Assembly: GCA_023128035.1 (NCBI GenBank)
Contig: JAGMES010000117.1
Location: 1 to 12,419 of the forward strand
Source: Halanaerobiales bacterium
Lineage (GTDB): Bacteria; Bacillota_F; Halanaerobiia; DY22613
DNA: 12,419 bases
Direction of reading: 5' to 3'
Shown here: positions 795-12,298 of the stretch, in pieces
How the letters are laid out: each line of letters begins with the position of its first letter
Numbering within the stretch: the stretch's first letter is position 1
Translations under genes and position numbers: made by a program
The notes under the pieces: model-generated
What the model saw: the letters and a program-made list of their open reading frames with translations, nothing else
Told to the model about the DNA's origin: nothing
Database searches by the model: none

Positions 795-858
795 GATTAC
801 TTTGAAAATATATGACGAAAAAATAGAAGAGGAGGAAAGTTTATTAAATTAATTTGAT

Positions 859-913: not shown

Positions 914-927
914 TGGAGGCAGGAAAA

Positions 928-1122
928 ATGGAAAAACCGACAGCAGATATTCCCGTTGTGGTAGATGCTAAAGCTCATGTAGTTAGCATTTATTTCGACC
1001 CAGGGTCACAAGAACTTAGTAAGTCAGGCAAATCTGTTTTGCTTGGAACTTCTCGTGGCTTTGCTAATGTAGAAGGGATTAGCGTCTCGTATAATATTAT
1101 ACGACCTTTGAATGAGGGATAA
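928..1122 (+). CDS. Small GC-richer protein, 64 aa, probably well expressed
   Basis: Family not firmly recognised. The frame is open from 859, but the start at 928 is chosen because TTGGAGGCAGGAAAA lies directly ahead of it and the upstream codons coincide with the tRNA-like element. A hand count gives about 40% G+C, clearly above its neighbours, with C- or G-ending codons (CCG, CCC, GTC, CGT) that are rare elsewhere in the window. The protein looks like a small beta-rich fold. After alternating strands (IPVVVDAKAHVVSIYFD) comes a polar turn SKSGKSVLLGTSRGF, then VEGISVSYNIIRP. The Ser-Gly-Lys-Ser and Thr-Ser-Arg-Gly pattern gives an impression of a conserved small-protein family, but I cannot name it. 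The GKS is not a convincing P-loop, since no GxxxxGK is present. The gene carries its own terminator, so it seems to be a one-gene transcript. Confidence 0.8.
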   Translation: MEKPTADIPVVVDAKAHVVSIYFDPGSQELSKSGKSVLLGTSRGFANVEGISVSYNIIRPLNEG

Positions 1123-1152
1123 GGATTCCGCTTGGAATCTCTTATCTTTTTT
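1118..1152 (+). terminator. Rho-independent terminator
   Basis: GATAAG-GATTCC (1118-1129) pairs with GGAATC (1134-1139) and CTTATC (1141-1146). The stem has 12 bp, a GCTT loop and a single bulged T at 1140, followed at once by six T (1147-1152) and a further pyrimidine run. The stem overlaps the stop codon of the gene at 928-1122. It is the clearest terminator in the window and isolates the upstream unit from the genes at 1450 onwards. Confidence 0.85.
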
Positions 1153-1168
1153 CCCTCTTTTTTTAATT

Positions 1169-1299
1169 TATGGATTTGCATATAGGAAATAGATAGGGAG
1201 AAAATGAGTTTATTTTGTAATAAGGGCGAGGAAAGCTCTAAGAAATTATTTAGTATTTGATTTGACTGCCCCTCTCTATTTTCGTGCACAAAATCCATA
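1169..1299 (+). ncRNA. Possible structured RNA closed by two long helices
   Basis: This stretch has no gene on the + strand. TATGGATTT (1169-1177) is perfectly complementary to AAATCCATA (1291-1299). Inside that, 1185-1198 pairs with 1270-1283 at 13 of 14 positions, including one G-T and one mismatch. The two helices are separated by a symmetric 7 x 7 internal loop. The apical part can form further short hairpins: AATAA 1219-1223 with TTATT 1246-1250, and GAG 1228-1230 with CTC 1236-1238. The overall shape is a long, interrupted rod of 131 nt. It begins only 16 bases after a terminator, with no clear promoter, so whether it is a transcript of its own is unknown. A role as leader, small RNA or DNA-level cruciform is equally open. 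Confidence 0.35.
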
Positions 1300-1334
1300 G
1301 ATTCAGGATTTGCTTATACATTCTCTAAACAACC

Positions 1335-1458
1335 CGGTTTAAAAACCGATAAATAAAACCGACGAAACTTGATTGTGATGATTACTCCAATAATCAGGGG
1401 TTGGGAGTAAAATGAATAGGTAGATTTGAGAAATTGAAGACATAGAGAGATGACCCCT
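1335..1458 (+). promoter_or_regulatory. Leader of the 1450 operon: repeats and mutually exclusive hairpins
   Basis: Three signals fall in this gene-free stretch. First, CGGTT (1335-1339) pairs with AACCG (1344-1348), and AAAACCGA occurs twice 13 bases apart (1342-1349 and 1355-1362), which could be a protein-binding repeat. Second, TGATTA (1379-1384) pairs with TAATCA (1391-1396). That pairing competes with TTACTCC (1382-1388) pairing with GGAGTAA (1404-1410). Third, AGGGGT (1396-1401) is complementary to ACCCCT (1453-1458), which includes the A-C-C-C-C right after the ATG at 1450. Together they suggest a leader that could control translation of the 1450 gene. None of the helices is long, and the case rests only on complementarity. 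Confidence 0.3.
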
Positions 1459-1737
1459 AAAATTATTAAATGGGATTGGTATTATCAAACAGGAATGTCT
1501 TTAGAGGAACTATGGGAAATTATTAAAGAGGATAAAAAAATGATTGAAGAGTATTTTTTAGAAGCGATAGAATATCCAGATAGGAAAATAAATTTTCATC
1601 CAATCGTACTCAAGAGAGCAGGACGGGGATTGATGGAACCTATTAATGTTTACATTGATGGGGAATTTTGGAAACAGATAGTGGGAGAAAAGCAAGCAAA
1701 GAAAGAAGCGATAGGTTATATTGATATGAGTTATTAG
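1450..1737 (+). CDS. Hypothetical acidic small protein, 95 aa
   Basis: Family not recognised. The protein has a tryptophan- and tyrosine-rich N-terminus (KIIKWDWYYQTG), a helical acidic stretch (about residues 17-42, SLEELWEIIKEDKKMIEEY), a mixed segment with a Lys-Arg-Ala-Gly-Arg-Gly turn, and a C-terminal helix rich in Lys and Ala. It has no membrane segment, zinc ligands or enzyme motif. The start has only a weak purine tract (GAGAG) close to the ATG, unlike the strong sites of the genes that follow. The upstream leader contains possible competing hairpins that reach the first codons, so translation may be controlled. It heads a run of nine closely spaced genes ending near 3602, with the next gene starting 13 bases downstream. 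Confidence 0.7.
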   Translation: MTPKIIKWDWYYQTGMSLEELWEIIKEDKKMIEEYFLEAIEYPDRKINFHPIVLKRAGRGLMEPINVYIDGEFWKQIVGEKQAKKEAIGYIDMSY

Positions 1738-1749
1738 GAGAAAATAAAA

Positions 1750-1875
1750 ATGGGAAGAAGCATACATGCTTTTAAATCAAGGAGACGTAGAAATAAGAGA
1801 AAGAAAACTTTTGAAACTCTAAAGCAAGGAAGCCGAAATTTGAGTAGGATTTTAAAAGGAGAGAAAAAGAAATGA
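1750..1875 (+). CDS. Very basic 41-residue peptide
   Basis: A short complete frame with a good Shine-Dalgarno sequence (TTAGGAGAAAATAAAA) ahead of its ATG. The protein is strongly basic: the central segment FKSRRRRNKRKKTFETL has a run of Arg and Lys, and the C-terminus ends in GEKKK. There is no hydrophobic core, so it is probably unfolded alone and binds nucleic acid or an acidic partner. Its TGA stop overlaps the ATG of the next gene as ATGA (1872-1875), and the next gene's ribosome site (AAAAGGAG) lies inside this frame. Both points argue that it is a real, translationally coupled gene. Its function is unknown; DNA or RNA binding is inferred from charge alone. Confidence 0.7.
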   Translation: MGRSIHAFKSRRRRNKRKKTFETLKQGSRNLSRILKGEKKK

Positions 1876-2315
1876 GAAGCGAAATTTTGGTATTGGGTGA
1901 GGAGACTATGGAAGTGAGAATTGCTTTCATGGGTATAGATTTGCCGGGATGGAGGAATTTAGAAAAGCCTGTTAATAGATATTCGATTGGTATTAATATG
2001 GGGGTTGTCACAGAAACATTTGATTTCTGGGATTCAAGATATAACTTTGAAAAAAAGAAAACCCCAGATACATTAGAAGTGCTTGAATCTATTTTTGATG
2101 ATGCACTTGCTGTTTTATACCATGATGACTTAAAGGAGTTCTCAGATGCTTTTTGCTATAATAATTGCATACGAGCTATTAAAGCTTTTGATTTCTGTAC
2201 CCAAACACTTTTAAAGTTAGAGAGATTAGGATTTCAAGAAGATAATATACCCAAGGTGATGGATGATATAGAATGCTTTCAAGAAGAAAGTGCAGAGACA
2301 GCGGGGGAAGATTGA
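1872..2315 (+). CDS. Hypothetical protein, 147 aa
   Basis: Family not recognised. The acidic protein starts with a strand-like region (ILVLGEETMEVRIAFMGIDL), then a central aromatic-rich part with a Lys-Lys-Lys-Thr-Pro turn near residue 58. The C-terminal half is helical and acidic and contains two or three cysteines (FCYNNCIRAIKAFDFC). The cysteines are not spaced like a zinc ribbon. It has no membrane segment or signal peptide. Translation is probably coupled to the basic peptide gene upstream through an ATGA overlap, with AAAAGGAG nine bases before the ATG. The gene ends one base before the start of the next. Confidence 0.8.
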   Translation: MRSEILVLGEETMEVRIAFMGIDLPGWRNLEKPVNRYSIGINMGVVTETFDFWDSRYNFEKKKTPDTLEVLESIFDDALAVLYHDDLKEFSDAFCYNNCIRAIKAFDFCTQTLLKLERLGFQEDNIPKVMDDIECFQEESAETAGED

Positions 2316-2316
2316 A

Positions 2317-2571
2317 ATGAGAAACACAAGCATCTTTAAAGTAGTTAAGGGAAAGGAAAAGATAGGAGAATTTAGATTGCTCCATAACCTTAATCTCACA
2401 ATCTATATTGATTATAAAGAAGGGGGGATAAAAAATAAGGGTGATAGCTCTGATTTCTTTAGACTGTTATCCCTGTATAGAGAAAATGAAACTTCTAATT
2501 TGATTGAGAACCTTGATATAGGAACAGAACAGACATTGGAATTGTTAAAGAATGGTAGATTTCAATTTTAG
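2317..2571 (+). CDS. Hypothetical protein, 84 aa
   Basis: Family not recognised. The frame is open from 2290, but the ATG at 2317 is preferred because GCGGGGGAAG lies about eight bases ahead and it starts one base after the stop of the previous gene. The predicted protein begins with alternating strands (SIFKVVKGKEKIGEFRLL then LTIYIDYKEGG) and ends with a helical acidic part (LIENLDIGTEQTLELLKNG). It may be a small alpha/beta domain. It has no cysteine, membrane or enzyme motif. It belongs to the run of co-directional small genes and is followed 14 bases later by a 24-codon frame. Confidence 0.75.
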   Translation: MRNTSIFKVVKGKEKIGEFRLLHNLNLTIYIDYKEGGIKNKGDSSDFFRLLSLYRENETSNLIENLDIGTEQTLELLKNGRFQF

Positions 2572-2585
2572 GGGAAAAGAATAAA

Positions 2586-2660
2586 ATGTCAAAGCATAAA
2601 ATAGTTCGCTTAGGAACACCAGATGATAATTGGTTGGAGTATAAAGCTGAAGAACTTTAA
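2586..2660 (+). CDS. 24-residue peptide
   Basis: A short frame starting with ATG, preceded by TTTTAGGGGAAAAGAATAAA, a ribosome site in the style of its neighbours. It encodes MSKHKIVRLGTPDDNWLEYK and four more residues, a soluble peptide with no recognisable motif. It fills the gap between two supported genes and lies in the same direction. Being so short, it could be a chance frame or a decayed gene remnant. Confidence 0.4.
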   Translation: MSKHKIVRLGTPDDNWLEYKAEEL

Positions 2661-2701
2661 GAGAATTTAAAATTGTTCTATCAGAATAGGAGAAAGTAAA
2701 T

Positions 2702-3004
2702 ATGTCAAACAAACATAACCTAAGGAAATTACGACAGTTAGCAATCCAGAGATTGGGTGGCAGATGTGCTGATTGTGAGATTGATGATGAAGAAGTGCTG
2801 GTGTTTGATCACAAAAATAACGATGGTTATAAGGAGAGAAGAGAGATTAGTTCTTATATATATCATAAGAGATTATACGAAGGAATATTAGAAGATAGAA
2901 GAGAAGATATTCAACTGCTTTGTGCAAACTGTAATATGAAAAAAGTCAAGCGGGAAAAGGAATGGAATAATGGATTAAAGGATAAAAAAGAAGATGGAAG
3001 TTAA
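2702..3004 (+). CDS. HNH endonuclease-like protein, 100 aa
   Basis: The protein carries the zinc-binding HNH layout. A first Cys pair at 22 and 25 (CADC) is followed by VFDHKNNDG at 34-42, with the catalytic-type Asp-His (D36, H37), then a helical spacer and LLCANCNMKK at 72-81, with the second Cys pair at 74 and 77. The final motif residue is Asn78 where many relatives have His; both occur in HNH proteins. Its length suits free-standing phage HNH nucleases, which cut DNA in homing, packaging or defence. The N- and C-terminal tails are rich in Lys and Arg, as expected for DNA binding. The start is supported by ATAGGAGAAAGTAAAT ahead of the ATG. It overlaps the next gene by 11 bases. Nuclease activity is inferred from the motif; the target is unknown. 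Confidence 0.85.
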   Translation: MSNKHNLRKLRQLAIQRLGGRCADCEIDDEEVLVFDHKNNDGYKERREISSYIYHKRLYEGILEDRREDIQLLCANCNMKKVKREKEWNNGLKDKKEDGS

Positions 3005-3179
3005 AGAAGAAAAAGATAGATTGTTTCTAATACGGATGAGGGATGAATGGTGGATAAAAGCACGTTCAGAAAATGAGGCTGTATTACATCTTGTGAATGT
3101 AATATGTCGAGATAGATTTCTTGACGAGCATCATCCAGCTTTTCAATGTGTTTCAATACGGAGTGTTGATGAATCATAA
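2994..3179 (+). CDS. Hypothetical protein, 61 aa
   Basis: Family not recognised. It starts inside the last codons of the HNH gene in another frame, an arrangement typical of translational coupling; only a weak purine tract precedes the ATG. The sequence suggests two strands (LFLIRMRDEWWIKARS), a helix (ENEAVLHLVNVICRDRF) and a His-rich turn (DEHHPAFQCVSIRSV). It has two Cys and two adjacent His, but no clear metal-site spacing. The next gene follows after eight bases. Confidence 0.65.
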   Translation: MEVKEEKDRLFLIRMRDEWWIKARSENEAVLHLVNVICRDRFLDEHHPAFQCVSIRSVDES

Positions 3180-3187
3180 GAAGAAAA

Positions 3188-3496
3188 ATGGTTTATACCT
3201 TTGATAATGGAAGCAGGAACTTAGTAAAAATCGTAAAACGAGGAAAAAGGTGGGCAGTATATCAGCTAAAAGAAATACAGTGGTGGGATAAAGTATTTGC
3301 AGACTATAGGAGGAGTACAGAAACCAGATATAAGTTTATTTGGGAGAAAAAGGCGATTAACACCTATTCATATAAGCCTTTTGAGGATGCTGACGTAACC
3401 AACTACCCAGATAGCTTTATATCGGATGTAAAGAGGTGGCAACCGCATAAATTGTCTTATAGAGGTAAAGGAGAACAAAAAAATGGTCTGGGATGA
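3188..3496 (+). CDS. Hypothetical basic protein, 102 aa
   Basis: Family not recognised. The protein is basic and rich in Trp and Tyr. An N-terminal strand pair (RNLVKIVKRGKRWAVYQL) is followed by IQWWDKVFADYRRSTETRYK and an aromatic middle (ETRYKFIWEKKAINTYSYK). The pattern would suit a small nucleic-acid-binding or virus-host interaction protein, but no family motif is visible. The ribosome site is weak (AAGAAGAAAA), suggesting coupling to the upstream gene nine bases away. Its last codons contain the ribosome site and start of the 39-residue membrane peptide at 3483. Confidence 0.7.
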   Translation: MVYTFDNGSRNLVKIVKRGKRWAVYQLKEIQWWDKVFADYRRSTETRYKFIWEKKAINTYSYKPFEDADVTNYPDSFISDVKRWQPHKLSYRGKGEQKNGLG

Positions 3497-3602
3497 AATC
3501 ACGAATGAAGAATCAAATAAGCCTCCAGAAATAGATATTCTTTCTTACATAATAATCTTTATCCTCCTTATCTTCTTTGGGGAAATGATATTATTAATTT
3601 AG
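3483..3602 (+). CDS. 39-residue single-span membrane peptide
   Basis: The short frame overlaps the end of the previous gene by 14 bases and has its own ribosome site (AAAGGAGAACAAAAAA). It encodes an acidic N-terminal arm of about 18 residues (MVWDEITNEESNKPPEID), followed by one long hydrophobic span, roughly residues 19-39 (ILSYIIIFILLIFFGEMILL). With no positive charge at the N-terminus and a hydrophobic C-terminal end, the orientation cannot be called confidently. Small one-span proteins are common in phages, where some act on the membrane or on superinfection, but no such role can be assigned here. It closes the run of genes that began at 1450. Confidence 0.6.
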   Translation: MVWDEITNEESNKPPEIDILSYIIIFILLIFFGEMILLI

Positions 3603-3756
3603 AAGCGTGATAGTCTTTCTCTCATTCACATTTTTGATTACGTACAGATAAATTCTATCAATTCTATGCAAAAATTTAAACGATATATTCAGTATATTCA
3701 ATGAGATTTGTAAAGCTATACATTACTATCAAAAGTATAAAAATAGAAAAATAGGT
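3603..3756 (+). repeat. Intergenic stretch with two tandem 8-base repeats of 9-base period
   Basis: No gene is seen. AATTCTAT occurs at 3651-3658 and 3660-3667, and TATATTCA at 3684-3691 and 3693-3700. Each pair repeats with a 9-base step, and the two pairs are unlike each other. A weak promoter-like pair, TTGATT (3634-3639) and TATCAA (3656-3661) with 16-base spacing, overlaps the first repeat. The stretch probably holds the promoter or operator of the gene at 3757, but the AT-rich background makes chance matches likely. Confidence 0.3.
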
Positions 3757-4209
3757 ATGACAGAAATGACTAAAAAAACAAGATATGAAATAAAAGAAGA
3801 AATACGATTTATGGTAGTGAAGGAATCTTTAGATAAAGAAATACATTCAGCAAGGGATGTGTATTCTTTAATGAAAACAGAAGCAAGAATAGATAGAGAA
3901 TGTGTATGGGTGCTCCATCTAAATTCAAGAAAGAAATTGATAGAAAAAGAATTAGTAAGCATGGGAACAGCGGAGGAATCATTAATGCGTCCAAGAGAAG
4001 TATTTAGAAAGGCAATAATAAATGGAGCAGTTTCAATAATAATTGTTCATAATCACCCAAGCGGAAATGTAACACCCAGCGATGCTGATATTTTTGTATC
4101 TGAAGATATAAAAAAAGCAGGAGAGATGTTAGGAGTGCCCGTAGATGATTTTATAATAATAGGAAATGAATACACTAGTTTTGCTGATCAGGGAATTGGA
4201 GAGTTTTAA
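3757..4209 (+). CDS. RadC-type JAB domain protein, 150 aa
   Basis: This is a well-conserved RadC core. VWVLHLNSRKKLIEKELVS (about residues 50-68) is the strand-turn-strand that leads to a Gly-Thr turn (MGTAEESLMRPREVFRKAI). It is followed by HNHPSGNVTPSDAD at 98-111, which supplies the JAMM metal ligands H98, H100 and D111. The tail VPVDDFIIIGNEYTSFADQG is the usual RadC C-terminus. It is shorter than chromosomal RadC and lacks the helix-hairpin-helix part; residues 1-45 are a charged helical extension instead. This short form is typical of proteins carried by phages and plasmids. The biochemical function of the family is unsettled. The ribosome site is weak (AATAGGT close to the ATG), so the start could be wrong by a few codons. 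The next gene starts four bases downstream. Confidence 0.92.
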   Translation: MTEMTKKTRYEIKEEIRFMVVKESLDKEIHSARDVYSLMKTEARIDRECVWVLHLNSRKKLIEKELVSMGTAEESLMRPREVFRKAIINGAVSIIIVHNHPSGNVTPSDADIFVSEDIKKAGEMLGVPVDDFIIIGNEYTSFADQGIGEF

Positions 4210-4212
4210 GAA

Positions 4213-4401
4213 ATGAATGGAACAATAAGATTAAATGAGAAGTTTGAGGAAGTAGTAGATTGGAGAGAAACTTTTTATGTAATGTATTCTAATGGGGATA
4301 TTGAAATTACACATAGAGCTGAAAGTCAATATCCAATTATCAATATAAAAGAAATCAAAAAACTTGTAGAAGTATTTGAAAAGGTAGAGATTAAAAAATG
4401 A
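4213..4401 (+). CDS. Hypothetical protein, 62 aa
   Basis: Family not recognised. An acidic small protein with a ribosome site (TTGGAGAG) about eight bases upstream, inside the end of the JAB gene. The predicted structure is strand-rich: MNGTIRLNEKFEEVVDWRET, then FYVMYSNGDIEITHRAES, then a C-terminal helix (IKEIKKLVEVFEKVEIKK). Its stop overlaps the start of the next gene (ATGA at 4398-4401), so the two are likely translated together with the JAB gene. Confidence 0.7.
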   Translation: MNGTIRLNEKFEEVVDWRETFYVMYSNGDIEITHRAESQYPIINIKEIKKLVEVFEKVEIKK

Positions 4402-4592
4402 TAATAACAATCAATGTTGTGATAGAAAATATTACTCCCGATGAAAATACACAATCTGTTTTTGATACACAAAAAGAAAAGAAATTCTTATTGCTAGATA
4501 TGAAAAATATTGAAGATAAGAAACAATTATTCAAAGCAATAAAAGAATTTTTAGATGAAACCTTAAAGGATAAAAATGAAGAAAGGACATAA
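4398..4592 (+). CDS. Hypothetical protein, 64 aa
   Basis: Family not recognised. An N-terminal strand (MIITINVVIENITPDENTQS) leads into a charged middle and a C-terminal acidic helix (KQLFKAIKEFLDETLKDKNE). It starts within an ATGA overlap with the preceding gene, with AAGGTAGAGA upstream as ribosome site. No cysteines, membrane segment or catalytic motif is visible. Confidence 0.7.
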   Translation: MIITINVVIENITPDENTQSVFDTQKEKKFLLLDMKNIEDKKQLFKAIKEFLDETLKDKNEERT

Positions 4593-4609
4593 GGAATGGG
4601 AAGAGAGCC

Positions 4610-4641
4610 AGGATTTTCTATTCTTCCAAACAGAAAATCTT
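4610..4641 (+). repeat. 10-bp inverted repeat in the gap before the 4745 gene
   Basis: AGGATTTTCT (4610-4619) pairs with AGAAAATCTT (4632-4641) across a 12-base loop, with one G-T pair. No T run follows, so it is not a standard terminator in this direction. It may be a transcript-stabilising or processing hairpin between the 4398 gene and the 4745 gene. The rest of the 152-base gap holds only two very short frames (15 and 13 codons). Confidence 0.35.
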
Positions 4642-4744
4642 AAAAGCGAGAAAGAAGAAAATAGGAGTGAGGATGAAAAATGAAAGAATTCACTTGGAGA
4701 GCTAGGAAGCAGTTGGTTTGATATTCAATGTAAAGAGAATAAAA

Positions 4745-5833
4745 ATGAGTAATAAAATAAATGTGGAGCCCATCTGGTATGGAATACCAGCGACAGAAAT
4801 TTTAGAGTTAGTAGAGGGTGAAAAGTTTACTCGAAATCCTGAAGAAAATGGGATAAATATAGAGAGTATAGAAAAAGATAAAGAAAATAAATTGATATTC
4901 AAATTGAGTAACGGAATAAAATCCGAATTTACAAGTAATAAAATTATTAGTGTAAATGAAATTTTTAATTATTTTTCTAACTCCAAAAATCTTACTAGTT
5001 GGACATTACACTTTCTTGAGTATATAGCTTCAAATAGAAATGTTTTGTCTGAATTAAAAGAGAGGACATTTAATACTGTTGATTATTTGAATCTTAGTCA
5101 AATACAATTACGGAAAATGGAATCGAAAACTGGATTACCATTTATTGAATGTGCACCGTCTTACACTAATGGATTAACCCCAATTTTATATATGTGGGCA
5201 TTGGGTTGCAAAAAAGCGATGGAGGATTCTTTTTCATATCCTAATTTTAGAGCAGATAAACATCTTATACCAGAAGAATATATCACTTCAGACAATCAAA
5301 AAATTACTTTATATAAACGTCCTTTAATATCACAATTACCAAAGATTTATTTTATACCAGTTAGTATGACTGCAAGTAAGTTATCAAGCTTTTCAGTTAC
5401 AAAAATAAACGGTGTGACTGTAACAGGGGAAATTGAATCAAGATTATTAAAAGAAGAAACTATTCATTCTTCATTCTTAGATGAGAAATATTTGGGAAGC
5501 ACAGATGTTTTTTATGATTTCGTTTCTAATCTTTGGTTTAATATAGAAATGTTAGTGAATTCTACTTTTCCAGATTCGTTTTTCTCTTCAGAAATAAGAG
5601 AAAATACTCTATTAGATTTATATTACCAATCATGGTCAGTCATTTCCAATAAAGAGAGAGCACATGATGTTTGTCAGTCTTTGAGAATAGACATTAAAAG
5701 TCTTCTCAGAAGAAAATTGGTAAAAGAGAGAGAAGCTATATTAAAAGGGGGAGTTGAAGCTTCTAAATTTCTACGAGAAACTACATTTGAGTCATTAATT
5801 TATGAAGTTTGTAAAGAAAAGGAAATCTCATAA
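4745..5833 (+). CDS. Unknown 362-residue protein upstream of the MoxR ATPase
   Basis: Family not recognised, and no catalytic motif, zinc site, signal peptide or membrane span is visible. The start at 4745 is chosen because AAAGAGAATAAAA precedes an ATG in the same style as neighbouring genes; an in-frame TTG at 4718 with AGGAAG ahead would add nine residues. Residues 1-70 look strand-rich (LIFKLSNGIKSEFTSNKII). The centre holds a stretch with one Cys and several aromatic residues (GLPFIECAPSYTNGLTPILY), and the C-terminal third is helical and charged (DIKSLLRRKLVKEREAILKG). The gene lies 38 bases before the MoxR gene in the same direction. That makes it a candidate third component, substrate or adaptor of the MoxR/VWA pair, by position only. 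Its length and uniform base use indicate a genuine gene. Confidence 0.85.
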   Translation: MSNKINVEPIWYGIPATEILELVEGEKFTRNPEENGINIESIEKDKENKLIFKLSNGIKSEFTSNKIISVNEIFNYFSNSKNLTSWTLHFLEYIASNRNVLSELKERTFNTVDYLNLSQIQLRKMESKTGLPFIECAPSYTNGLTPILYMWALGCKKAMEDSFSYPNFRADKHLIPEEYITSDNQKITLYKRPLISQLPKIYFIPVSMTASKLSSFSVTKINGVTVTGEIESRLLKEETIHSSFLDEKYLGSTDVFYDFVSNLWFNIEMLVNSTFPDSFFSSEIRENTLLDLYYQSWSVISNKERAHDVCQSLRIDIKSLLRRKLVKEREAILKGGVEASKFLRETTFESLIYEVCKEKEIS

Positions 5834-5871
5834 TCTTTGTTTGGATATTAATAGATAGGAAAAAGAAAAAA

Positions 5872-6927
5872 ATGAACATAAAAGAAGCGAAAGAAAAAAT
5901 TAAGAAATTGTATGAATTAAGGATTGCGTTCATGTTGTGGGGCTCAACGGGCGTTGGGAAATCAGCAATCGTAAAAGAGGTAACAGAAGAGTTGGGCATT
6001 CAGTTAGTGAATAAATCGCTTTTGACGCTTGAAACTCCTGATCTTGAAGGTTACCCTTTCCCAGATTTTGATAAAGGAATAGTAAAACAACTTCCTCCAG
6101 AGTGGGCAACCTATCCGGAAAATTTTAATGGGATTATGTTATTTGATGAATTTAATCACGCTTCTGATGATTTGCAAAAAGCATTTTATTCTGTATTCTA
6201 TGATCATAAGATAGGAGATGTACTTCTTCCTGAAGGATTAGTGGTATGTGGGACTGGTAACAAACGAGAACATGGAGCACGGGTTATAGATATGGAAATT
6301 CCGCTAGAAGCTCGAATACATGAAATGGAAATCGAGCCAGATGCTGATGCTTGGAGAGAATGGGCTCTTACACATAACATTGATAAGGATATTATAGCTT
6401 ATATTTATTCTCATCCAGATAGTCTTTATGTTTATCCAGAAACAAGAAACGAAAAAGTAACTTGTGGAAGAGGTTGGGAAAGAGTATCAAAGCTATTGAG
6501 TAAAAAATTAGATTCCATTGAGGATTTAAGTGGTTCAATAGGATTATCTGTGGGAGCAGAGTTTATAACATTCAGAGAACTAAGTAAATGTATCCCTTCT
6601 ATTGATGCGATTCTCTTAGGAAAAGATGATGTAAAAATACCAGATAGGTTTGATATACTTTCTTATACTATCCAATCAGTAATACAAAGAATAAAAATAG
6701 AAAAGACTAAACAAAAACAATTAAAATCCAGCAAGGGTTATTTTAAATATGTGAGAAGAATATGGGAAATGGGAATGGCGAGTAGTCAACATGCTTCTTT
6801 TGTTGAAGCTAGTGCTGCGTTCACAAAGGATTTCAAAGTTGTCTTTCCTACTATATTCTCGCAGATGTTTAGTGATTCCAATTTCAAGAAAGTAATGAGT
6901 GGAATCGGAAAAGAGATTCTGGACTGA
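5872..6927 (+). CDS. MoxR-type AAA+ ATPase, 351 aa
   Basis: The Walker A motif is at 24-31 (GSTGVGKS), Walker B at 88-93 (IMLFDE) followed by FNHA, and sensor 1 in CGTGNKREHGARVI with N130. An Arg-finger candidate lies in IPLEARI (R148). The sequence after it, EMEIEPDADAWREWA, is typical of the MoxR subgroup that accompanies metallopeptidase-VWA proteins. Family members form ring-shaped ATPases that remodel a client together with a VWA-domain partner. The next gene, 56 bases downstream, encodes exactly such a partner. The start has AGGAAAAAGAAAAAA ahead of it. The C-terminal 120 residues are helical and basic and do not match a motif I know. The biological client here is unknown. ATPase identity is very secure; phage context and function are inferred. 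Confidence 0.95.
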   Translation: MNIKEAKEKIKKLYELRIAFMLWGSTGVGKSAIVKEVTEELGIQLVNKSLLTLETPDLEGYPFPDFDKGIVKQLPPEWATYPENFNGIMLFDEFNHASDDLQKAFYSVFYDHKIGDVLLPEGLVVCGTGNKREHGARVIDMEIPLEARIHEMEIEPDADAWREWALTHNIDKDIIAYIYSHPDSLYVYPETRNEKVTCGRGWERVSKLLSKKLDSIEDLSGSIGLSVGAEFITFRELSKCIPSIDAILLGKDDVKIPDRFDILSYTIQSVIQRIKIEKTKQKQLKSSKGYFKYVRRIWEMGMASSQHASFVEASAAFTKDFKVVFPTIFSQMFSDSNFKKVMSGIGKEILD

Positions 6928-6983
6928 TGGTAGAACATAAAATCTATAAAGGAAAAGAAAGATGAAATAAGGGAAGTCAAAAA

Positions 6984-8330
6984 ATGGACATAAATAAAAA
7001 AATCAGAAAGGCTAGATTTAAGTTTATCCAAGCTAAACCATTCTGGTCAAACATACTTGGGATTCCATATGAGTTTGATGATATAGAAACTCAATGTTGT
7101 TCTACTGACGGAAAGGCATTCTATCTAAATCCCAATTACATAAATGAAACAGAAATAGATGATTTACAGTTAGACTTCGCACATGAATATTTACATTTAT
7201 TATTAGGACATACAATAGACAAACGATTTAAATCTGTTAAAGGAAATCCCAATAAATTTTATATAGCTAATTTAGCAGCGGATTATGTAGTGAATAGTAT
7301 TATCAAGGAAGAATTTAAAAGAGAAGTTAAAGATGGCTATTATGATCCTCAATTCGGACATATGACATTTGAACAAGTTTATCATTTTTTAAATAAAGAA
7401 GGGGATAACCAAACTAAAGAGCGATTAGAATCAAAAGATAGTCCATGGAATAATGGAGAAGGTTCTAATCCTTCCTCTTCTCCTTCTTCTAATCCTCAAA
7501 ATAATGAAGAAAGTTTAGAGGATATATTAGATGATTTGCTAGGAGATGATAAAGATGATAAAGGAAAAGAGAAAGAGAAAGGGAGCAACAAAAGCGAATC
7601 TGGGAAGGATATAAAAAATAAAAATCAACAAAGAGAATACTTTAAGGACCATAAGAAATGGGAACATGATAACAAAAAAGAAAGCCCCATAATCACAATG
7701 CTCAGAAATACTTTGATGGGAGCACATTTACGTGGTGACTTACCTGCGGGATTAGAAAGAGAAGTACAAAATATTTTGCATCCTGCAATCCCAATAAGAG
7801 ATGTAATCTCCTCATTTGTTTTGGAGAAGTCCCAATCTAAACAAACTTGGAAACGAATGAAAAGAAGATTCTATCCTCCAATCTATCTTCCTAAGAGAGG
7901 ACAAAAACAAAAGCTCCATATAGGAGTGGCGATCGACACGAGCGGAAGCGTGGACGTTGATATGCTAAGTGAATTCAAAGCAGGAATGGGATATTTATTT
8001 TCTTTCTTCCGAAACAATCTTGAGGTTATAGTATTCCAAGCTGATGCTGCAATTCAGGGTGAAGATGTAATAAGAGAACCAGAGGACATGGAGAAAATAA
8101 AATGGAAGGGAGGAGGAGGAACAGATTTCAATCCTGTATTCGATAGGATGAGAGAAGAGCATCCGGAATTAAGAGGATTGATATACATTACGGATACTGA
8201 TGGAAAATTTCCTGATAAAGAATTATCATTTCCTACTGTATGGTTAGTTCCGGAAAAGGAAAGAAAGTATCATCACAAACCACCTTTCGGCAAATTAATT
8301 TTTTACGAAGGTGCGGTTTGTAAATCATAA
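6984..8330 (+). CDS. Metallopeptidase-like plus VWA-like protein (DUF2201 type), 448 aa
   Basis: It has two domains. The N-terminal part (about 1-150) contains FAHEYLHLLLGH, with the HExxH zinc-protease signature at 67-71 and a further His at 76, followed later by NLAADYVVN. This is the layout of the putative metallopeptidase domain that precedes DUF2201 VWA-like domains. Residues about 150-230 form a low-complexity linker rich in Ser, Asn, Asp, Glu and Lys. The C-terminal part (about 300-448) is VWA-like, with the MIDAS motif AIDTSGSVD (D318, S320, S322) and GGGTDFNPVFD (T380, D381). Such proteins are partners of MoxR ATPases, and the MoxR gene lies directly upstream. Whether the zinc site cleaves protein is not established for the family. 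The ribosome site is AAGGGAAGTCAAAAA. The next gene follows after 16 bases with a strong site. Confidence 0.93.
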   Translation: MDINKKIRKARFKFIQAKPFWSNILGIPYEFDDIETQCCSTDGKAFYLNPNYINETEIDDLQLDFAHEYLHLLLGHTIDKRFKSVKGNPNKFYIANLAADYVVNSIIKEEFKREVKDGYYDPQFGHMTFEQVYHFLNKEGDNQTKERLESKDSPWNNGEGSNPSSSPSSNPQNNEESLEDILDDLLGDDKDDKGKEKEKGSNKSESGKDIKNKNQQREYFKDHKKWEHDNKKESPIITMLRNTLMGAHLRGDLPAGLEREVQNILHPAIPIRDVISSFVLEKSQSKQTWKRMKRRFYPPIYLPKRGQKQKLHIGVAIDTSGSVDVDMLSEFKAGMGYLFSFFRNNLEVIVFQADAAIQGEDVIREPEDMEKIKWKGGGGTDFNPVFDRMREEHPELRGLIYITDTDGKFPDKELSFPTVWLVPEKERKYHHKPPFGKLIFYEGAVCKS

Positions 8331-8346
8331 AGAACGAGGAGTAAAA

Positions 8347-8649
8347 ATGGATGTAGATAATAAAATAATTAATAATCTAAAAGAAACAGCTATTACATTT
8401 TATAGAATGGAAGTACATAAAGAGATAGCAAATTTTTCTAATAAAAAGAAACATGATATTCTTCAAGAGATTTCAGATTTGTCCTTGAGAGAACCATTTT
8501 GGTTAGAACACCTTCCTAAATTTATCATTAAATCCTATGATGTTAATTATAAATTTAAAGGTCTTGAATTAATGGCTTGGATGTATGAATTAGGTAACGA
8601 TTTATTACATATAGAATTAAGTGAAGAAACTAAGATTAATATTCCTTAA
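8347..8649 (+). CDS. Hypothetical protein, 100 aa, last gene of the MoxR cluster
   Basis: Family not recognised. The frame is open from 8311, but the start at 8347 is chosen for the strong site ACGAGGAGTAAAA. The protein appears all-helical: DVDNKIINNLKETAITFYR, then KKKHDILQEISDLSLREPFW, then YKFKGLELMAWMYELGNDLL. It is acidic at the C-terminus and has no Cys, membrane span or catalytic motif. With a 16-base gap after the VWA gene it is probably co-transcribed and could be an accessory or client of the MoxR/VWA pair, although nothing in the sequence proves this. Confidence 0.75.
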   Translation: MDVDNKIINNLKETAITFYRMEVHKEIANFSNKKKHDILQEISDLSLREPFWLEHLPKFIIKSYDVNYKFKGLELMAWMYELGNDLLHIELSEETKINIP

Positions 8650-8957
8650 TAGAGTTTAAATTTAATAATCTGTAAATCTTAAATAGATATGTATATTATT
8701 AAAGGATAAAAATTTATGTTCAACAGATGTTTTTAGTATTAGTCTCACTCTAAAACTTAATGATTTATAAACAAATTCCGAAGCAAAAAAGGGTAGTTTA
8801 GAGAAGAATACATGAATCTATATAAGATATTTTTCTGATATTACAAAACTAATGCTATACTATGGAAAACTAATAAAAATTTAAAGTTGATAGTTTATAA
8901 CTTTAAGATTCTTATAATAAAGCTTATTATTAAATAATAATAATATTAAATAATAAT
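8650..8957 (+). promoter_or_regulatory. 308-base AT-rich gap with promoter candidate and 8-base dyad
   Basis: No gene is seen in this stretch. TGCTATACT (8853-8861) is an extended -10 element: TG, one base, then TATACT. No good -35 is present, which is acceptable for extended -10 promoters. Downstream, TTAAAGTT (8881-8888) and AACTTTAA (8899-8906) form a perfect 8-base dyad with a 10-base spacer, suitable for a dimeric repressor. An imperfect inverted repeat (CTCTAAAAC 8748-8756 with GTTTAGAG 8796-8803) and an AATAAT-rich tract (8935-8959) complete it. The stretch probably ends the MoxR transcript and starts the 8958 transcript, although no clear terminator is visible. Confidence 0.4.
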
Positions 8958-9443
8958 ATGGAAGAGAGTATGGGAAAAATAATAATGGTTCCGGGTGTTG
9001 CATTTAAATTAGCTTTTGTGTGCAAAACAGAAACTTATGAAGTTTATCTTTCAGCATATAGAAATTCACTTAGAAGAATATTAAGTTTAATGAATGAAAA
9101 TAAGTATAGTTTATTTATTTCTCCCTCCTCTCCCACAGTAAATTTTAAATATCCTCCTTATCCTCTATTTCTGTTTTATTTTAATTCTAATCCTTTTCTA
9201 ATTAATATAAAAAATATAACTGTCTCAGTTCCTACTAATAAATTAAGATTAATAGGAGACTTAGAAGCTATTACTTCTTCAAAATCACTTCAGATGCCCT
9301 GTTCTTTTCGTAAAATAAATGAGAAATTTTTAATATTCCATTGTTCAGAAGAAGATAAAGCAGAAGGAATTCATATAGGTATAACATACTTAAACATGCT
9401 TACAGAAGAGGACATTACAAAAATGTATGCTTGGGAGCAATAA
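8958..9443 (+). CDS. Hypothetical protein, 161 aa
   Basis: Family not recognised. Residues 1-45 look like strand-helix (FKLAFVCKTETYEVYLSAYR). A proline- and phenylalanine-rich middle (SPSSPTVNFKYPPYPLFLFY) is followed by strand-rich segments (INIKNITVSVPTNKLRLIGD) and a C-terminal region with two Cys. The aromatic middle is not a clear membrane span because it contains prolines and Asn. The start is uncertain. The ATG at 8958 has no ribosome site in the AT tract before it, and in-frame ATGs at 8970 and 8985 are alternatives; the one at 8985 has only GGGAAAAATAAT ahead. It is first after a promoter-like gap and is followed after 19 bases by a P-loop ATPase gene, so the two are probably co-transcribed. 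Confidence 0.75.
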   Translation: MEESMGKIIMVPGVAFKLAFVCKTETYEVYLSAYRNSLRRILSLMNENKYSLFISPSSPTVNFKYPPYPLFLFYFNSNPFLINIKNITVSVPTNKLRLIGDLEAITSSKSLQMPCSFRKINEKFLIFHCSEEDKAEGIHIGITYLNMLTEEDITKMYAWEQ

Positions 9444-9462
9444 GAAAATAAGGAAAGGTATT

Positions 9463-10086
9463 ATGGAAATCGAGAGAATCTTAAATAATGATATAGGTGT
9501 TCTTATGTCCCGAAGTAATGAAGGGAAAACACATACTCTTTGTTCTCTTATTCAAGAATACAAACAGAAATATAACGGTAGTGTAACAACATTTGGATTT
9601 AAAGATGCGTTAATTAATTTATTAGACGTACAATCCTTCTCAAGCTTAATAGAATTAGAGGAGATTAGAAATAGCGTAATTATAGTAGATGAAGTAGGAA
9701 TCTTGTTTGATTTAGAAAATAGAAAAAAGAGACGAATGATAGAAGGAACATTAAGATTAGTAAATCATAGAGGCAATAAAATATTATTATCAGGATTACC
9801 AAGTGATTTTAAGAAGTTTCTGTGTGCAAAATCAAAAGTATTTCTATTTAAAACATTAATGATAAGTGATTTGATTAATGGTAGTCTTGCAAAGGAAATG
9901 TTATTACAATACAGAGGATTAGGATTAGGTGCACATTCTTTATTACTTCCCAAAGAAATGATGCTGTGTTTTGATGGTCGTTTCTGGACTGAGAGAATGC
10001 CCTATAATGCAGCATATGATACTAAACTTGAAAACGAGAATTTATTCAAAAAAAGTACAGAAAAAAGTGCAAAAAATGTACACTAA
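9463..10086 (+). CDS. Small P-loop ATPase, possibly of the FtsK/HerA/Zot packaging type, 207 aa
   Basis: The frame is open from 9427, but the start at 9463 is chosen for AATAAGGAAAGGTATT directly ahead. The P-loop SRSNEGKTHTL is at 16-26; the usual first Gly is Ser, but the Gly-Lys-Thr core is intact (G21, K22, T23). Walker B is VIIVDEVG at 72-79. After it, RLVNHRGNKILLSGLPSDFK resembles the sensor region of FtsK/HerA and Zot-like ATPases, where RH-x-G is followed by a strand ending in a polar residue. A C-terminal part includes GLGAHSLLLPKEMMLCFDGR. It is short, about one ATPase domain. Such enzymes translocate DNA in packaging or in filamentous phage assembly. The next gene encodes a membrane protein, which would suit a membrane-coupled role, but the subfamily cannot be fixed from motifs alone. 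Confidence 0.75.
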   Translation: MEIERILNNDIGVLMSRSNEGKTHTLCSLIQEYKQKYNGSVTTFGFKDALINLLDVQSFSSLIELEEIRNSVIIVDEVGILFDLENRKKRRMIEGTLRLVNHRGNKILLSGLPSDFKKFLCAKSKVFLFKTLMISDLINGSLAKEMLLQYRGLGLGAHSLLLPKEMMLCFDGRFWTERMPYNAAYDTKLENENLFKKSTEKSAKNVH

Positions 10087-10105
10087 GATGTATTGGAAAA
10101 AAGAA

Positions 10106-10357
10106 ATGAAAAAAAATATAGATTTATTAAAAAGAATTATTGTTTTATTATGTGGTATTTGGGCATTAGGATTGGGAGGAAGAATGACAGTAGAACTTTA
10201 TATGTCTAGTGGATGGGTCCATGTCCCTCGTAATATATTCTATGGAATTAATATCTGGCTTGACTTTTTACCTCTCTTTATATTTGGATTGATTACTGTG
10301 GCAATAAAAATTAATGAAATAAGATTATCTATGTATCAAAAGGGAAAAGGGAAATGA
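10106..10357 (+). CDS. Two-span membrane protein, 83 aa
   Basis: Family not recognised. The frame is open from 9971, but most of that lies within the ATPase gene. The start at 10106 is taken for TTGGAAAAAAGAA ahead of it; in-frame ATGs at 10076 and 10088 are possible and would add ten or six residues. A Lys-rich N-terminus (MKKNIDLLKR) suggests a cytoplasmic start. It is followed by span 1 at about 11-30 (IIVLLCGIWALGLGG), a short outer loop (ELYMSSGWVHVPRN), span 2 at about 50-68 (IWLDFLPLFIFGLITVAI) and a basic tail (MYQKGKGK). Both ends are therefore predicted cytoplasmic. It follows the ATPase gene and overlaps the next gene as ATGA (10354-10357). A membrane partner of the ATPase is possible. 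Confidence 0.7.
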   Translation: MKKNIDLLKRIIVLLCGIWALGLGGRMTVELYMSSGWVHVPRNIFYGINIWLDFLPLFIFGLITVAIKINEIRLSMYQKGKGK

Positions 10358-10488
10358 AAACTATTAGACTTAATCGGAGGGATCATGTATTGTATGTGGG
10401 AGATTGTAGCAAGGATATTGATGACTGGAATAATATTACTATGATTTATAATGTAACTCATATATTAAATTGTGGTAGTAACGATTGA
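10354..10488 (+). CDS. 44-residue frame resembling the start of a dual-specificity phosphatase, ended by UGA
   Basis: It starts in an ATGA overlap with the membrane protein gene, with AAAAGGGAAAAGGGAA ahead. The text VLYVGDCSKDIDDW and later NVTHILNCGSND resembles the LY-x-GD and ITHILN segments near the start of dual-specificity phosphatase domains. The catalytic HCxxGxxR loop is absent because the frame stops at TGA (10486-10488). Beyond the TGA the same frame stays open for 23 codons to the TAA at 10558-10560 and reads like protein (VILGFVTEVEDVEERW), ending just before the next gene. Options are a decayed phosphatase-like gene, a genuine short gene with a chance frame after it, or UGA read-through. 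Other genes here use TGA as a normal stop, which argues against reassignment. The phosphatase resemblance is weak and based on a few residues. Confidence 0.5.
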   Translation: MKTIRLNRRDHVLYVGDCSKDIDDWNNITMIYNVTHILNCGSND

Positions 10489-10567
10489 TGTCTAATATAT
10501 AATAGAGATGTGATATTAGGATTCGTTACAGAAGTGGAAGATGTAGAGGAGAGGTGGTAATAGTAAA

Positions 10568-10783
10568 ATGAAGTTGGAAGAAAAGGAAAAAATAGAGGAA
10601 ATCCTTATAAAGATTGCTTCATTGTATAATCCCGAAGTCCCTCCAGACTTAATTAAAAAGCATGTAGTTCAATATGTTGATATTCTTGATAAGCATATAG
10701 ACAAAGATGGTGTTCTTATCCATGATTCTCCAAGAGAACTCCGCAAAGCAATTTCAAAGATTTCTCAACTCAAACAGGTTTGA
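10568..10783 (+). CDS. Hypothetical helical protein, 71 aa
   Basis: Family not recognised. The ribosome site is GAGAGGTGG about ten bases before the ATG. The protein is largely helical: KLEEKEKIEEILIKIASLY, a turn with NPEVPPD, then LIKKHVVQYVDILDKHI, a DKDG turn and a final helix (PRELRKAISKISQLKQV). The periodic hydrophobic residues suggest a helical bundle or a dimer. There is no metal site, membrane span or catalytic motif. The next gene starts five bases after the stop. Confidence 0.7.
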   Translation: MKLEEKEKIEEILIKIASLYNPEVPPDLIKKHVVQYVDILDKHIDKDGVLIHDSPRELRKAISKISQLKQV

Positions 10784-10788
10784 TGTGA

Positions 10789-11049
10789 ATGCCATTTATA
10801 GTTCTTAAAATTCCTCACAAATGTCCTTATTGTCAAAAGATAAATTCTTCTCTTAAGCATTATCGTTTAGTAGTTGATATTCCTTATAAGTTTGTGGGGG
10901 ATTTCATTATAAATTATTCCAGTAAGAAATTAGATTTTATTAAGGGAATAAATCATTGTAGTTTCTGTGAACATGATTATCAATGTAGAATAGGAATAAA
11001 GGAATCTATATTAACTAACATAGCAGTTTGTGAAAAGGAAACTGAATGA
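10789..11049 (+). CDS. Hypothetical protein with two CxxC pairs, 86 aa
   Basis: The protein contains CPYC at 12-15 and CSFC at 57-60, with about 41 residues between, plus two more Cys (about 66 and 80). The paired CxxC spacing looks like a zinc ribbon with a long insert, or a rubredoxin-like knuckle pair. The segment between (HYRLVVDIPYKFVGDFIINY) reads as strands, which is the usual zinc-ribbon filling. Zinc binding is an inference; the function is unknown. The ribosome site is poor (AGGTTTG), so translation may be coupled to the preceding gene, whose stop lies five bases upstream. Confidence 0.7.
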   Translation: MPFIVLKIPHKCPYCQKINSSLKHYRLVVDIPYKFVGDFIINYSSKKLDFIKGINHCSFCEHDYQCRIGIKESILTNIAVCEKETE

Positions 11050-11122
11050 CTAAGAATAAATCTAACAATCTGTTATTTCAAACAATAAGGTAAGGGGAAT
11101 TAAAAAAGGGGTATTCTTAAAG

Positions 11123-11209
11123 ATGATTGATTTAACTACAACAAGTTTAATTATTTATTTTTTAATTCTCTATAAATATTATAGTTTGGTTATTAGTGAT
11201 ATTTCTTAA
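11123..11209 (+). CDS. Possible 28-residue hydrophobic peptide
   Basis: A short ATG frame encoding MIDLTTTSLIIYFLILYKYY and eight further residues, with a hydrophobic stretch of about 14 residues that could insert in a membrane. A purine tract AAAGGGG lies 12 bases upstream, which is further than usual. It sits alone in a 266-base stretch between two better supported genes. The rest of that stretch is AT-rich leader and a tRNA-like element. It could well be a chance frame. Confidence 0.3.
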   Translation: MIDLTTTSLIIYFLILYKYYSLVISDIS

Positions 11210-11224
11210 GAAGAAGAAGAAGAA

Positions 11225-11294
11225 GTGGGAGATGGTGTAATGGAAACACAACCGTACCCCGGTAGTTTGAATAGGTCCGACTCCTATTCCCCAC
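11225..11294 (+). ncRNA. tRNA-like element in the leader of the 11316 gene
   Basis: GTGGG (11225-11229) pairs with CCCAC (11290-11294), and GAATAGG (11269-11275) pairs with CCTATTC (11283-11289) around the seven-base loop TCCGACT. That gives 12 bp in acceptor-plus-T-arm arrangement, as in tRNA. A D-arm-like hairpin is present: GTGT (11235-11238) with ACAC (11246-11249), loop AATGGAA containing the usual GG. The anticodon position is replaced by a short hairpin, ACCG (11251-11254) with CGGT (11260-11263), loop of five. Canonical arms would need 17 bases here, not 13. So it looks like a tRNA with a shortened anticodon arm, and the decoding identity cannot be read. No CCA end is encoded. A strong ribosome site (AGGAGGAGG) follows about six bases later. 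Confidence 0.45.
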
Positions 11295-11315
11295 ATTATT
11301 AGGAGGAGGGATATA

Positions 11316-11612
11316 ATGGAAATGATTGCGTTGTTAATAGTTGTTTCAATGATAAGTGCTGGAAGCTTTGTTTATTTGGCTCTATATTATTTTTTAAGAC
11401 TTATGGAATTAGAAGCAGTAAACAAAGAGTTAGAAAGGGAATTGGAAAAGGAGAAACAAAAAAGTATGTCTAACATTAAACCGACCATTAGATTAGAGGA
11501 ATTAATATTTCTTGAGTGTGTAATTGATTTGTTATTTAGGGAAGACAAATATTGCGTCCAAATTGCTGATACTAATGGGCGGATACTTCAAAGACAATTT
11601 CACGATTTTTAA
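11316..11612 (+). CDS. Membrane-anchored coiled-coil protein, 98 aa
   Basis: Family not recognised. The strong ribosome site TTAGGAGGAGGGATATA precedes the ATG. Residues 4-27 form one membrane span (IALLIVVSMISAGSFVYLAL), which could also act as an uncleaved signal anchor. A coiled-coil segment rich in Glu and Lys follows at about 30-50 (MELEAVNKELERELEKEKQK), then a soluble part with mixed strands (FLECVIDLLFREDKYCVQIA) and two Cys. The layout resembles small phage inner-membrane or spanin-like anchors, but no such identity can be claimed. It directly follows the tRNA-like element. Confidence 0.75.
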   Translation: MEMIALLIVVSMISAGSFVYLALYYFLRLMELEAVNKELERELEKEKQKSMSNIKPTIRLEELIFLECVIDLLFREDKYCVQIADTNGRILQRQFHDF

Positions 11613-11618
11613 AAGAAA

Positions 11619-11897
11619 ATGATAGTAAAAGAAAAAATGAAAGGAATGCTTACGGATTGCGTGAATGGAAAACAAAAGGAAGTAGAACTTGGTTATAGAA
11701 TAGAAGAAGGTGAAGAATATTCAGTATTTCATTTGATTGGTGGTCCAACAGGATATGAGGATTTTAGAATCGAAAGAGTAGATGTATATAGAATGATTCA
11801 GTTTGGATGGACAGCTTGTATGGGAACGAAGAATACATATGATAGATTGTATATTCGAGCAGAGGAAATGAAAAAAGCATTGGGAGATTATATTTAA
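11619..11897 (+). CDS. Hypothetical protein, 92 aa
   Basis: Family not recognised. It starts six bases after the previous stop with a poor ribosome site (AAAAGAAA); an in-frame ATG at 11637 is an alternative. The predicted fold is strand-rich: LGYRIEEGEEYSVFHLIGG, then a Gly-Pro-Thr-Gly turn (GGPTGYEDFRIERVDVYRM) and a C-terminal helix (DRLYIRAEEMKKALGDYI). It has no metal site or membrane span. Composition matches its neighbours. Confidence 0.7.
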   Translation: MIVKEKMKGMLTDCVNGKQKEVELGYRIEEGEEYSVFHLIGGPTGYEDFRIERVDVYRMIQFGWTACMGTKNTYDRLYIRAEEMKKALGDYI

Positions 11898-11901
11898 ATA
11901 A

Positions 11902-12090
11902 ATGATAACAAAAGAAGAATTTATAAAATATGAAAAGGTTAGAATGAGTGGCGTAACAAATATGATGGATGTTGAAATAGTAAGTTCTCTAACTTCTTTG
12001 GACGAGGAAAAGATTATAGAAATTATAAATGATTATAAATCTCTAAGTAAACAATATCCAAATGTAAGGAACAATTCTTTTCCTTTATAA
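11902..12090 (+). CDS. Small conserved-looking phage protein, 62 aa
   Basis: The text ITKEEFIKYEKVRMSGVTNM, followed by LTSLDEEKIIEIINDY, has the feel of a short protein family that I associate with phages and low-GC Gram-positive bacteria. In that family a Ser-Gly-x-Thr-Asn-Met motif is followed by a helix ending in IM/INxY. I cannot name it, and this is recollection rather than a search. The protein is helical throughout with no cysteines. The ribosome site is GGGAGA, some 12 bases before the ATG, within the end of the previous gene. The next gene starts 17 bases after the stop. Confidence 0.7.
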   Translation: MITKEEFIKYEKVRMSGVTNMMDVEIVSSLTSLDEEKIIEIINDYKSLSKQYPNVRNNSFPL

Positions 12091-12107
12091 GCAGGGAATT
12101 AAAGAAA

Positions 12108-12269
12108 ATGAGAACTATTGATTTTGAAGATCAGAAAACATTTATAGAAGAAATACTTTCTATGAGATATGGAAGGATATCTGAAGCTGGCATTCATCAC
12201 AGGAAAAAGGAGTGGTTAAGTTGGTATTTTTCAAGGAAAGCACAAAAAGAAATTAGGGAAAATCAATAA
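12108..12269 (+). CDS. Hypothetical basic protein, 53 aa
   Basis: A complete short frame with AGGGAATTAAAGAAA ahead of the ATG. It encodes an acidic first part (MRTIDFEDQKTFIEEILSMR) and a basic second part with a His pair (GIHHRKKEWLSWYFSRKAQK). The whole may be two helices. There is no recognisable motif. Its position in line with co-directional genes and its own ribosome site support it. Confidence 0.6.
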   Translation: MRTIDFEDQKTFIEEILSMRYGRISEAGIHHRKKEWLSWYFSRKAQKEIRENQ

Positions 12270-12298
12270 TTATAATAAATAAAAATTGAGGTAAAAAA

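Follow-up and report, generated by a model that had tools for sequence, protein, structure and literature searches.

Pairs of a MoxR-type AAA+ ATPase and a metallopeptidase fused to a VWA domain are already known from viruses and are not new: a comparative study reports them from jumbo phages of group 2.2 (PMC7824862). AAA and vWA genes also occur in haloviruses, Hardycor1 among them, where the available excerpt does not describe them as metallopeptidases (PMC7911831). Further points of comparison are the proteins p618 and p892 of Acidianus two-tailed virus (ATV; PMC4124505) and the ternary VMAP-MoxR-vWA conflict systems (PMC7159879). Here we examine such a pair in contig JAGMES010000117.1 (assembly GCA_023128035.1, positions 1 to 12,419 of the forward strand; hereafter the window), where it is preceded by a gene for a protein of an uncharacterised family, here called X, and followed by one for a small protein, Y. 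X, MoxR and the VWA partner form a real three-gene cassette, present at five loci, in which the known pair is joined by a lineage-specific, uncharacterised partner. An earlier note on the same letters had proposed a set of four genes, Y included, in what it took for phage DNA.

The MoxR and metallopeptidase-VWA pair

Both central genes belong to viral families. The MoxR protein matches phrog_1297 over residues 1-329 (E 3.8e-66) and carries the Walker A (GSTGVGKS, 24-31) and Walker B (IMLFDE, 88-93) motifs exactly where they had been noted. Its partner matches phrog_1314 (E 6.6e-74) and, above the Pfam cut-offs, PF09967 (E 6.1e-19) and PF13203 (E 1.2e-18). The HEYLH (67-71) and MIDAS (DTSGS, 318-322) motifs noted earlier are both present, the former within a longer zinc motif, HEYLHLLLGH. 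PHROGs names phrog_1314 'HNH endonuclease', as do several phage records with NC_ accessions; the label looks like a misnomer because the domains present are a metallopeptidase and a VWA domain.

In a tblastn search of 50,697 phage records, 758 matched MoxR and 436 the VWA partner, all at identities below 60%. The survey of gene order comprised 173 loci, including the window and excluding L008 as a duplicate of L168; 29 had no MoxR or VWA match at E 1e-8, which leaves 144 pair loci. The locus scans list the best 80 of at least 566 confirmed loci (viral contigs, scanned with a MoxR alignment) and the best 80 of 192 and of 163 confirmed loci, the last from genomes. VWA lies downstream of MoxR on the same strand in all 144 viral loci with both genes, and the two are directly adjacent in 60. 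HExxHxxxxH occurs in every one of the 144 partners, DxSxS in 141, and Walker A in 133 of the MoxR open reading frames (ORFs). The earlier note treated the two as a remodelling pair. The pair stands, but the retention of the zinc site in all partners suggests that cutting matters, and, judged from these motifs, proteolysis by the cassette beyond remodelling is likely.

Cellular MoxR relatives, among the best 80 of the 163 genome loci, are 24-30% identical and mostly labelled Bacillota; no archaeal provirus was found in the same set. Libraries of defence systems gave only weak matches to MoxR (DolB, E 7e-7).

Elsewhere the pair has other company. A DUF3150-like gene recurs beside it in 16 other viral loci, lying between MoxR and VWA in nine of the 13 where it could be placed, and an Nmad5-like gene in 37. 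The DUF3150 label comes from a match just below the Pfam cut-off (E 1.9e-4), and a protein of L006 annotated as DUF3150 gave no such match. X is related to neither kind of neighbour (hhalign probability of X against the DUF3150-like protein, 0.1%). Ten representatives of the pair-neighbour families in other viruses yielded one exonuclease, three families of unknown function and six without a match, a result that does not settle the timing of expression. We infer that the pair is shared and that the third gene added to it varies with the virus group.

A third gene that tracks one MoxR clade

X had no match in the phage records, and a single-sequence search of the protein database returned X alone. 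Among the viral-contig matches listed by the MoxR-alignment scan, L008 has a MoxR 61% identical to that of the window and, directly before it, a 343-residue ORF with 25% identity to X over 355 residues (E 6e-12). A two-sequence X profile retrieved 14 relatives of 261-364 residues. A scan with two MoxR sequences added L169, L170 (80,678 bases) and L171, with L168 being L008 with a longer flank; the MoxR proteins of these four relatives are 58-61% identical to that of the window. By phmmer X matches all four (E 1.1e-14 to 5.6e-7) and by tblastn L168 and L169 only, while the best of 100 shuffled X queries reached E 0.0043.

Among the ORFs of 253 loci and the window, the hidden Markov model (HMM) of the X family scores below E 1e-3 only in the window, L008/L168, L169, L170 and L171. 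X lies upstream of MoxR in all five loci of one MoxR clade and is absent from the other 139 of the 144 viral pair loci. The five X-bearing loci make up one side of a branch with an SH-aLRT support of 100% in a MoxR tree of 159 proteins; the position of this clade among other MoxR groups is unsure because long branches meet. The tree comprises 142 of the 144 pair loci (at least 250 residues) and 17 cellular proteins, from every fourth genome locus with a match, after a length filter. The earlier note had suggested asking how often homologues of the flanking proteins neighbour the pair. For X, a scan led by X itself found five viral loci; MoxR comes next in all four that hold a complete X, and the fifth ends at the contig edge.

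One of the five loci identifies the group concerned. A protein encoded by L169 (71,922 bases) is identical to one of Methanophagales virus GBV301, QIT36_gp049; this virus is classed as Kukulkanvirus guaymasense in the Ekchuahviridae, Nakonvirales (PMC9894754). The viral origin read earlier as 'phage DNA' is upheld in its viral part and recast in the rest: the window looks like DNA of a relative of head-tailed viruses of methane-eating archaea (the archaeal Kukulkanvirus group). X marks a conserved, uncharacterised protein family in these archaeal head-tailed viruses.

A gene may be conserved in place for no functional reason, and X may simply be a stable neighbour in a conserved gene block, linked in function to neither MoxR nor VWA. 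There is such a block. Weak matches to the ORF o2290 are present in all four relatives (E 1.4e-5 to 0.0028), which speaks against a special tie of X; a RadC-like gene matches L169 (tblastn E 3e-54) and none of L168, L170 and L171; and o10789 has relatives in L168 and L169. Further, X directly precedes MoxR in the window, L168 and L169, and a 143-residue ORF parts the two in L170, with a 55-residue match to that ORF within the shorter gap of L171. However, when 13 window ORFs upstream of MoxR, among them X, were tested, only X and, less strongly, o2290 had a match in each of the four relatives; in five of five loci it is X that is conserved next to MoxR. We regard a neighbour without a function in the cassette as unlikely, though with an appreciable share of the probability.

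The proteins themselves are under purifying selection between L170 and L171, where the ratios of nonsynonymous to synonymous substitution rates (dN/dS) are 0.04 (X), 0.05 (MoxR) and 0.12 (VWA). Residues W151, S182-D183, H241-S242, Y293 and S296-W297 (window numbering), among others, are invariant in 17 aligned X rows (alignment A8; alignment A9 keeps 15 of these and leaves out P0013, of 261 residues and mosaic-looking, and the truncated P0016). A structure model of X from the window sequence was poor, and one from the GBV301 sequence was confident (mean pLDDT 90.3, pTM 0.84), with strands and short helices predicted at the N-terminus, further helices after them, a middle part rich in strands and a C-terminal part made of helices. 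Among the papers listed by searches of one library on ANME-1 (anaerobic methanotrophic archaea, group 1) viruses and MoxR, MoxR-VWA phage pairs, DUF3150 and DUF2201, no title or abstract opening describes X or the cassette, and the word MoxR is absent from the main text, supplements aside, of the ANME-1 virome paper.

Upstream of X, L169 (5218-6042) and L170 (5103-5990) also have a gene like those of class-II glutamine amidotransferases (PF13230); none was found in the window. An amidoligase in the relatives, considered on a GIELEF motif, is not claimed, as neither Pfam nor NCBIfam gave a match.

Y and the genes downstream of the pair

The four-gene set of the earlier note stood as far as X is concerned and failed for Y. 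No homologue of Y was found: a single-sequence database search, of a type that also missed the relatives of X, returned Y alone, and Y has no match in the four relatives and 0.7 bits against the HMM described below. Its start 16 nucleotides after VWA, a GAGGAG stretch before its ATG and a base composition by codon position that resembles the neighbouring genes would suit a fourth member, as would the limited sensitivity of the search. However, a different family follows VWA in all four relatives. Membership of Y in the cassette is not supported, and we consider a set of four very improbable.

Directly after VWA, each of the four relatives carries small paralogous ORFs in a tandem array, most of them 140-180 residues long. 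These link into a single cluster of 29, which no window ORF joined. An HMM built from 22 of the 29 and one member of a separate pair matches, with fragments and training members counted, 5, 8, 9 and 13 ORFs of the four loci; ATV, the remainder of GBV301 and the other loci gave it no significant match. Of 120 window ORFs, the one at 8958-9443 scores best with this HMM (E 0.0037, or E 1.1 in a wider ORF set); one of 300 shuffles scored equally high, and Y intervenes between VWA and this ORF. By these scores it may be an array member, at best a weak one.

The arrays of L170 and L171 run collinearly apart from two places in L171 (around 10.9-11.8 and 16.0-16.4 kb), where inserted stretches hold further members. 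Over eight orthologous pairs dN/dS ranges from 0 to 0.69, with seven of the eight above 0.12 (0.13-0.69) and one pair identical in protein; the value of 0.69 is unreliable because the L171 ORF of that pair ends differently. In five of the eight pairs dN exceeds that of MoxR, so that part of the array diverges faster. Positive selection on the array was considered and rejected, with no dN/dS above 1 in the eight pairs. The last 30 well-filled columns of the array alignment are modestly more conserved (mean entropy 1.9-2.3 versus 2.3-3.0), and we keep a docking motif in this tail as an idea. Within the array lies an AbiEi-type antitoxin gene at L170:13157-13768 (PF13338, E 3e-6), with a 95% identical counterpart at L171:13895-14506.

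Variable small downstream genes, an antitoxin-type gene among them in L170 and L171, are what one might expect if the cassette were the viral version of a VMAP-type ternary conflict system with MoxR and vWA, acting in defence or as a weapon between elements. The order of third component, MoxR and vWA is also that described for VMAP systems in the available part of PMC7159879. However, no effector domain follows VWA, as the protein ends (448) nine residues past the DUF2201 match (439); X has no Pfam match above cut-off and no NCBIfam or PADLOC match; and the abstract of PMC7159879 reports such systems preponderantly from multicellular prokaryotes. Altogether we find a VMAP-type system improbable.

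Proposed function of the cassette

We propose, with moderate confidence, that the cassette is an ATP-driven remodelling protease of head-tailed viruses, whose clients would be selected by X and would more likely be host or replication proteins than virion proteins. MoxR would form an ATP-driven ring, and the VWA/MIDAS part of the partner would couple this ring to a client, which, once pulled or loosened, would be cut by the zinc-peptidase domain. X, as a third subunit specific to this lineage, would select clients or present them. Expression of the cassette may go together with that of replication genes, which would make host or replication clients more likely than virion ones.

The preference for such clients comes from gene placement. 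The GBV301 cassette shares the minus strand with PolB (PF00136) and NrdD; a capsid-like gene (PF25209, below cut-off) and the tape measure (phrog_28, E 2.6e-45) are encoded on the opposite, plus strand. This favours a non-virion role without proving it, since position is not expression. Hardycor1 keeps its AAA and vWA genes in a replication/accessory module, as far as the available text goes (PMC7911831). In the N4-like phages gp24, an AAA+ ATPase, and gp25 stand between RNAP2 and the DNA polymerase in the excerpted table of core proteins (PMC7650795). Finally, the 14 virion proteins of cyanophage S-CREM1 are listed as structural, of unknown function or unmatched, and its MoxR ATPase is not named among them in the available part of the report (PMC9964418). 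The GBV301 strand, the Hardycor1 module and the S-CREM1 virion list speak against a purely virion role.

The opposite case is that of a virion-assembly chaperone with a maturation protease, in which the cassette remodels or trims capsid or tail proteins and X is an assembly factor. Parts of the literature point this way: a role in virion assembly has been proposed for the jumbo-phage MoxR and metallopeptidase-vWA pairs (PMC7824862), and ATV p618 is described as a virion component that interacts with p892, p387, p653 and p800 (PMC4124505). In GBV301, too, the minus-strand block, on the strand of the cassette, contains a ClpP-like gene that PHROGs matches best to head maturation proteases (phrog_94, E 4.8e-29), so the block may not be free of virion functions. 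However, the cassette runs opposite the tape measure and capsid-like genes there, and the viral MoxR and VWA profiles do not recover p618 and p892, which leaves ATV as an analogy. A virion-assembly role seems doubtful to us, though it retains a real minority of the probability.

Several points weigh against the proposal of a client-selecting protease. Besides the ClpP-like gene, ATV p618 and p892 act in tail development according to the accessible part of PMC4124505, and the Hardycor1 vWA protein, of 711 residues, is not described as a metallopeptidase in the corresponding part of PMC7911831. Only five loci carry X, L170 and L171 being near sisters, and the window virus is known from one contig. 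X has nothing above cut-off in Pfam, where a 20-residue TRCF match (E 0.0054) is its single hit, and its GBV301 model has no convincing match among solved structures; the role of X is therefore a guess. Host-directed action by the proposed protease is possible and unproven.

The remodelling protease could also have exchangeable selectors. X would be the constant adaptor, and the small array proteins would be interchangeable adaptors or decoys against changing host targets, for example defence proteins of methane-oxidising archaea. We think this extension quite unlikely; if true, the virus would carry a degradation system whose range of targets is built in and can be expanded. The literature excerpts consulted name no tested client for the metallopeptidase-VWA type. 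X tracking one MoxR clade, with a variable array nearby in the relatives, offers a way in, as X can be tested as a client or an adaptor.

Layout and other features of the window

The features discussed are collected in Table 1. As the earlier note had it, and as the ORF list confirms, the four ORFs from X to Y share one strand; the intergenic gaps X/MoxR, MoxR/VWA and VWA/Y are 38, 56 and 16 nucleotides.

Table 1. Features of the window; positions count from its first letter.
Feature	Position	Strand	Product and start	Remarks
RadC-like JAB gene	3757-4209	+		PF04002, E 1.1e-37; synteny anchor to GBV301, no mechanistic role claimed
X	4745-5833	+	362 residues from internal ATG; mechanical ORF start TTG 4718	uncharacterised family
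MoxR-type AAA+ ATPase	5872-6927	+	351 residues	viral family phrog_1297
Zinc metallopeptidase fused to VWA domain with MIDAS	6984-8330	+	448 residues	phrog_1314, PF13203 and PF09967
Y	8347-8649	+	100 residues from ATG; mechanical ORF start GTG 8311	cassette membership not supported
161-residue ORF	8958-9443	+	161 residues	weak candidate for the small-paralogue array of the relatives
Small ORF o10789	10789-11049	+		synteny anchor; L168 and L169 have relatives of it downstream of the array

GC values per 1 kb run from 25 to 35% in the window; the GC content of L169 is 38%. Between Y and the ORF at 8958-9443, positions 8650-8957 form a stretch of 308 nucleotides at 18.5% GC with no listed ORF. The 219-residue ORF at 9427-10086 matches nothing in Pfam; it contains a stretch resembling a P-loop (SNEGKTHT ... 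VIIVDEVG). The window has two RadC-like JAB genes less than 4 kb apart, at 378-794 and 3757-4209; the latter is 57% identical to its GBV301 counterpart and the former more diverged (33% over 63 residues). On the plus strand of GBV301 (around 46.5-49.6 kb; L255:10889-13960) lies a gene for a 1023-residue protein with intein/LAGLIDADG signatures.

Comparison with known systems

The VMAP-MoxR-vWA ternary systems share with the window the order of their three genes, as given in the available part of PMC7159879. They have VWA proteins with effector tails, and the window has a metallopeptidase-VWA protein instead. X, in the position of the third component, has no recognised VMAP domain and no Pfam match above cut-off; the VMAP-C profile itself was not part of this comparison.

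The likeness to ATV is that of a viral MoxR interacting with a VWA protein and other viral proteins, as the accessible portion of PMC4124505 describes. Homology to the viral profiles is not detectable (p618 at E 0.22 for MoxR, p892 not listed up to E 1 for VWA), the two genes lie apart in the ATV genome and their role is in the virion tail, so ATV serves as an analogy. The viral MoxR profile does match another ATV ATPase, p529 (E 2.2e-8).

In the phage pairs, as in the window, MoxR and a zinc-peptidase-VWA protein are encoded near each other and in one direction, and belong to phrog_1297 and phrog_1314. They differ in what accompanies them, with no X in any locus outside the five and a DUF3150-like or Nmad5-like gene beside the pair in some.

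GBV301 differs from the window in having the paralogue array and the glutamine amidotransferase-like gene, neither found in the window. Identities to the window are 24% for X, 59% for MoxR and 48-51% for VWA (two pieces), and the two share the X-MoxR-VWA order, the RadC-like gene upstream and the relative of o10789 downstream.

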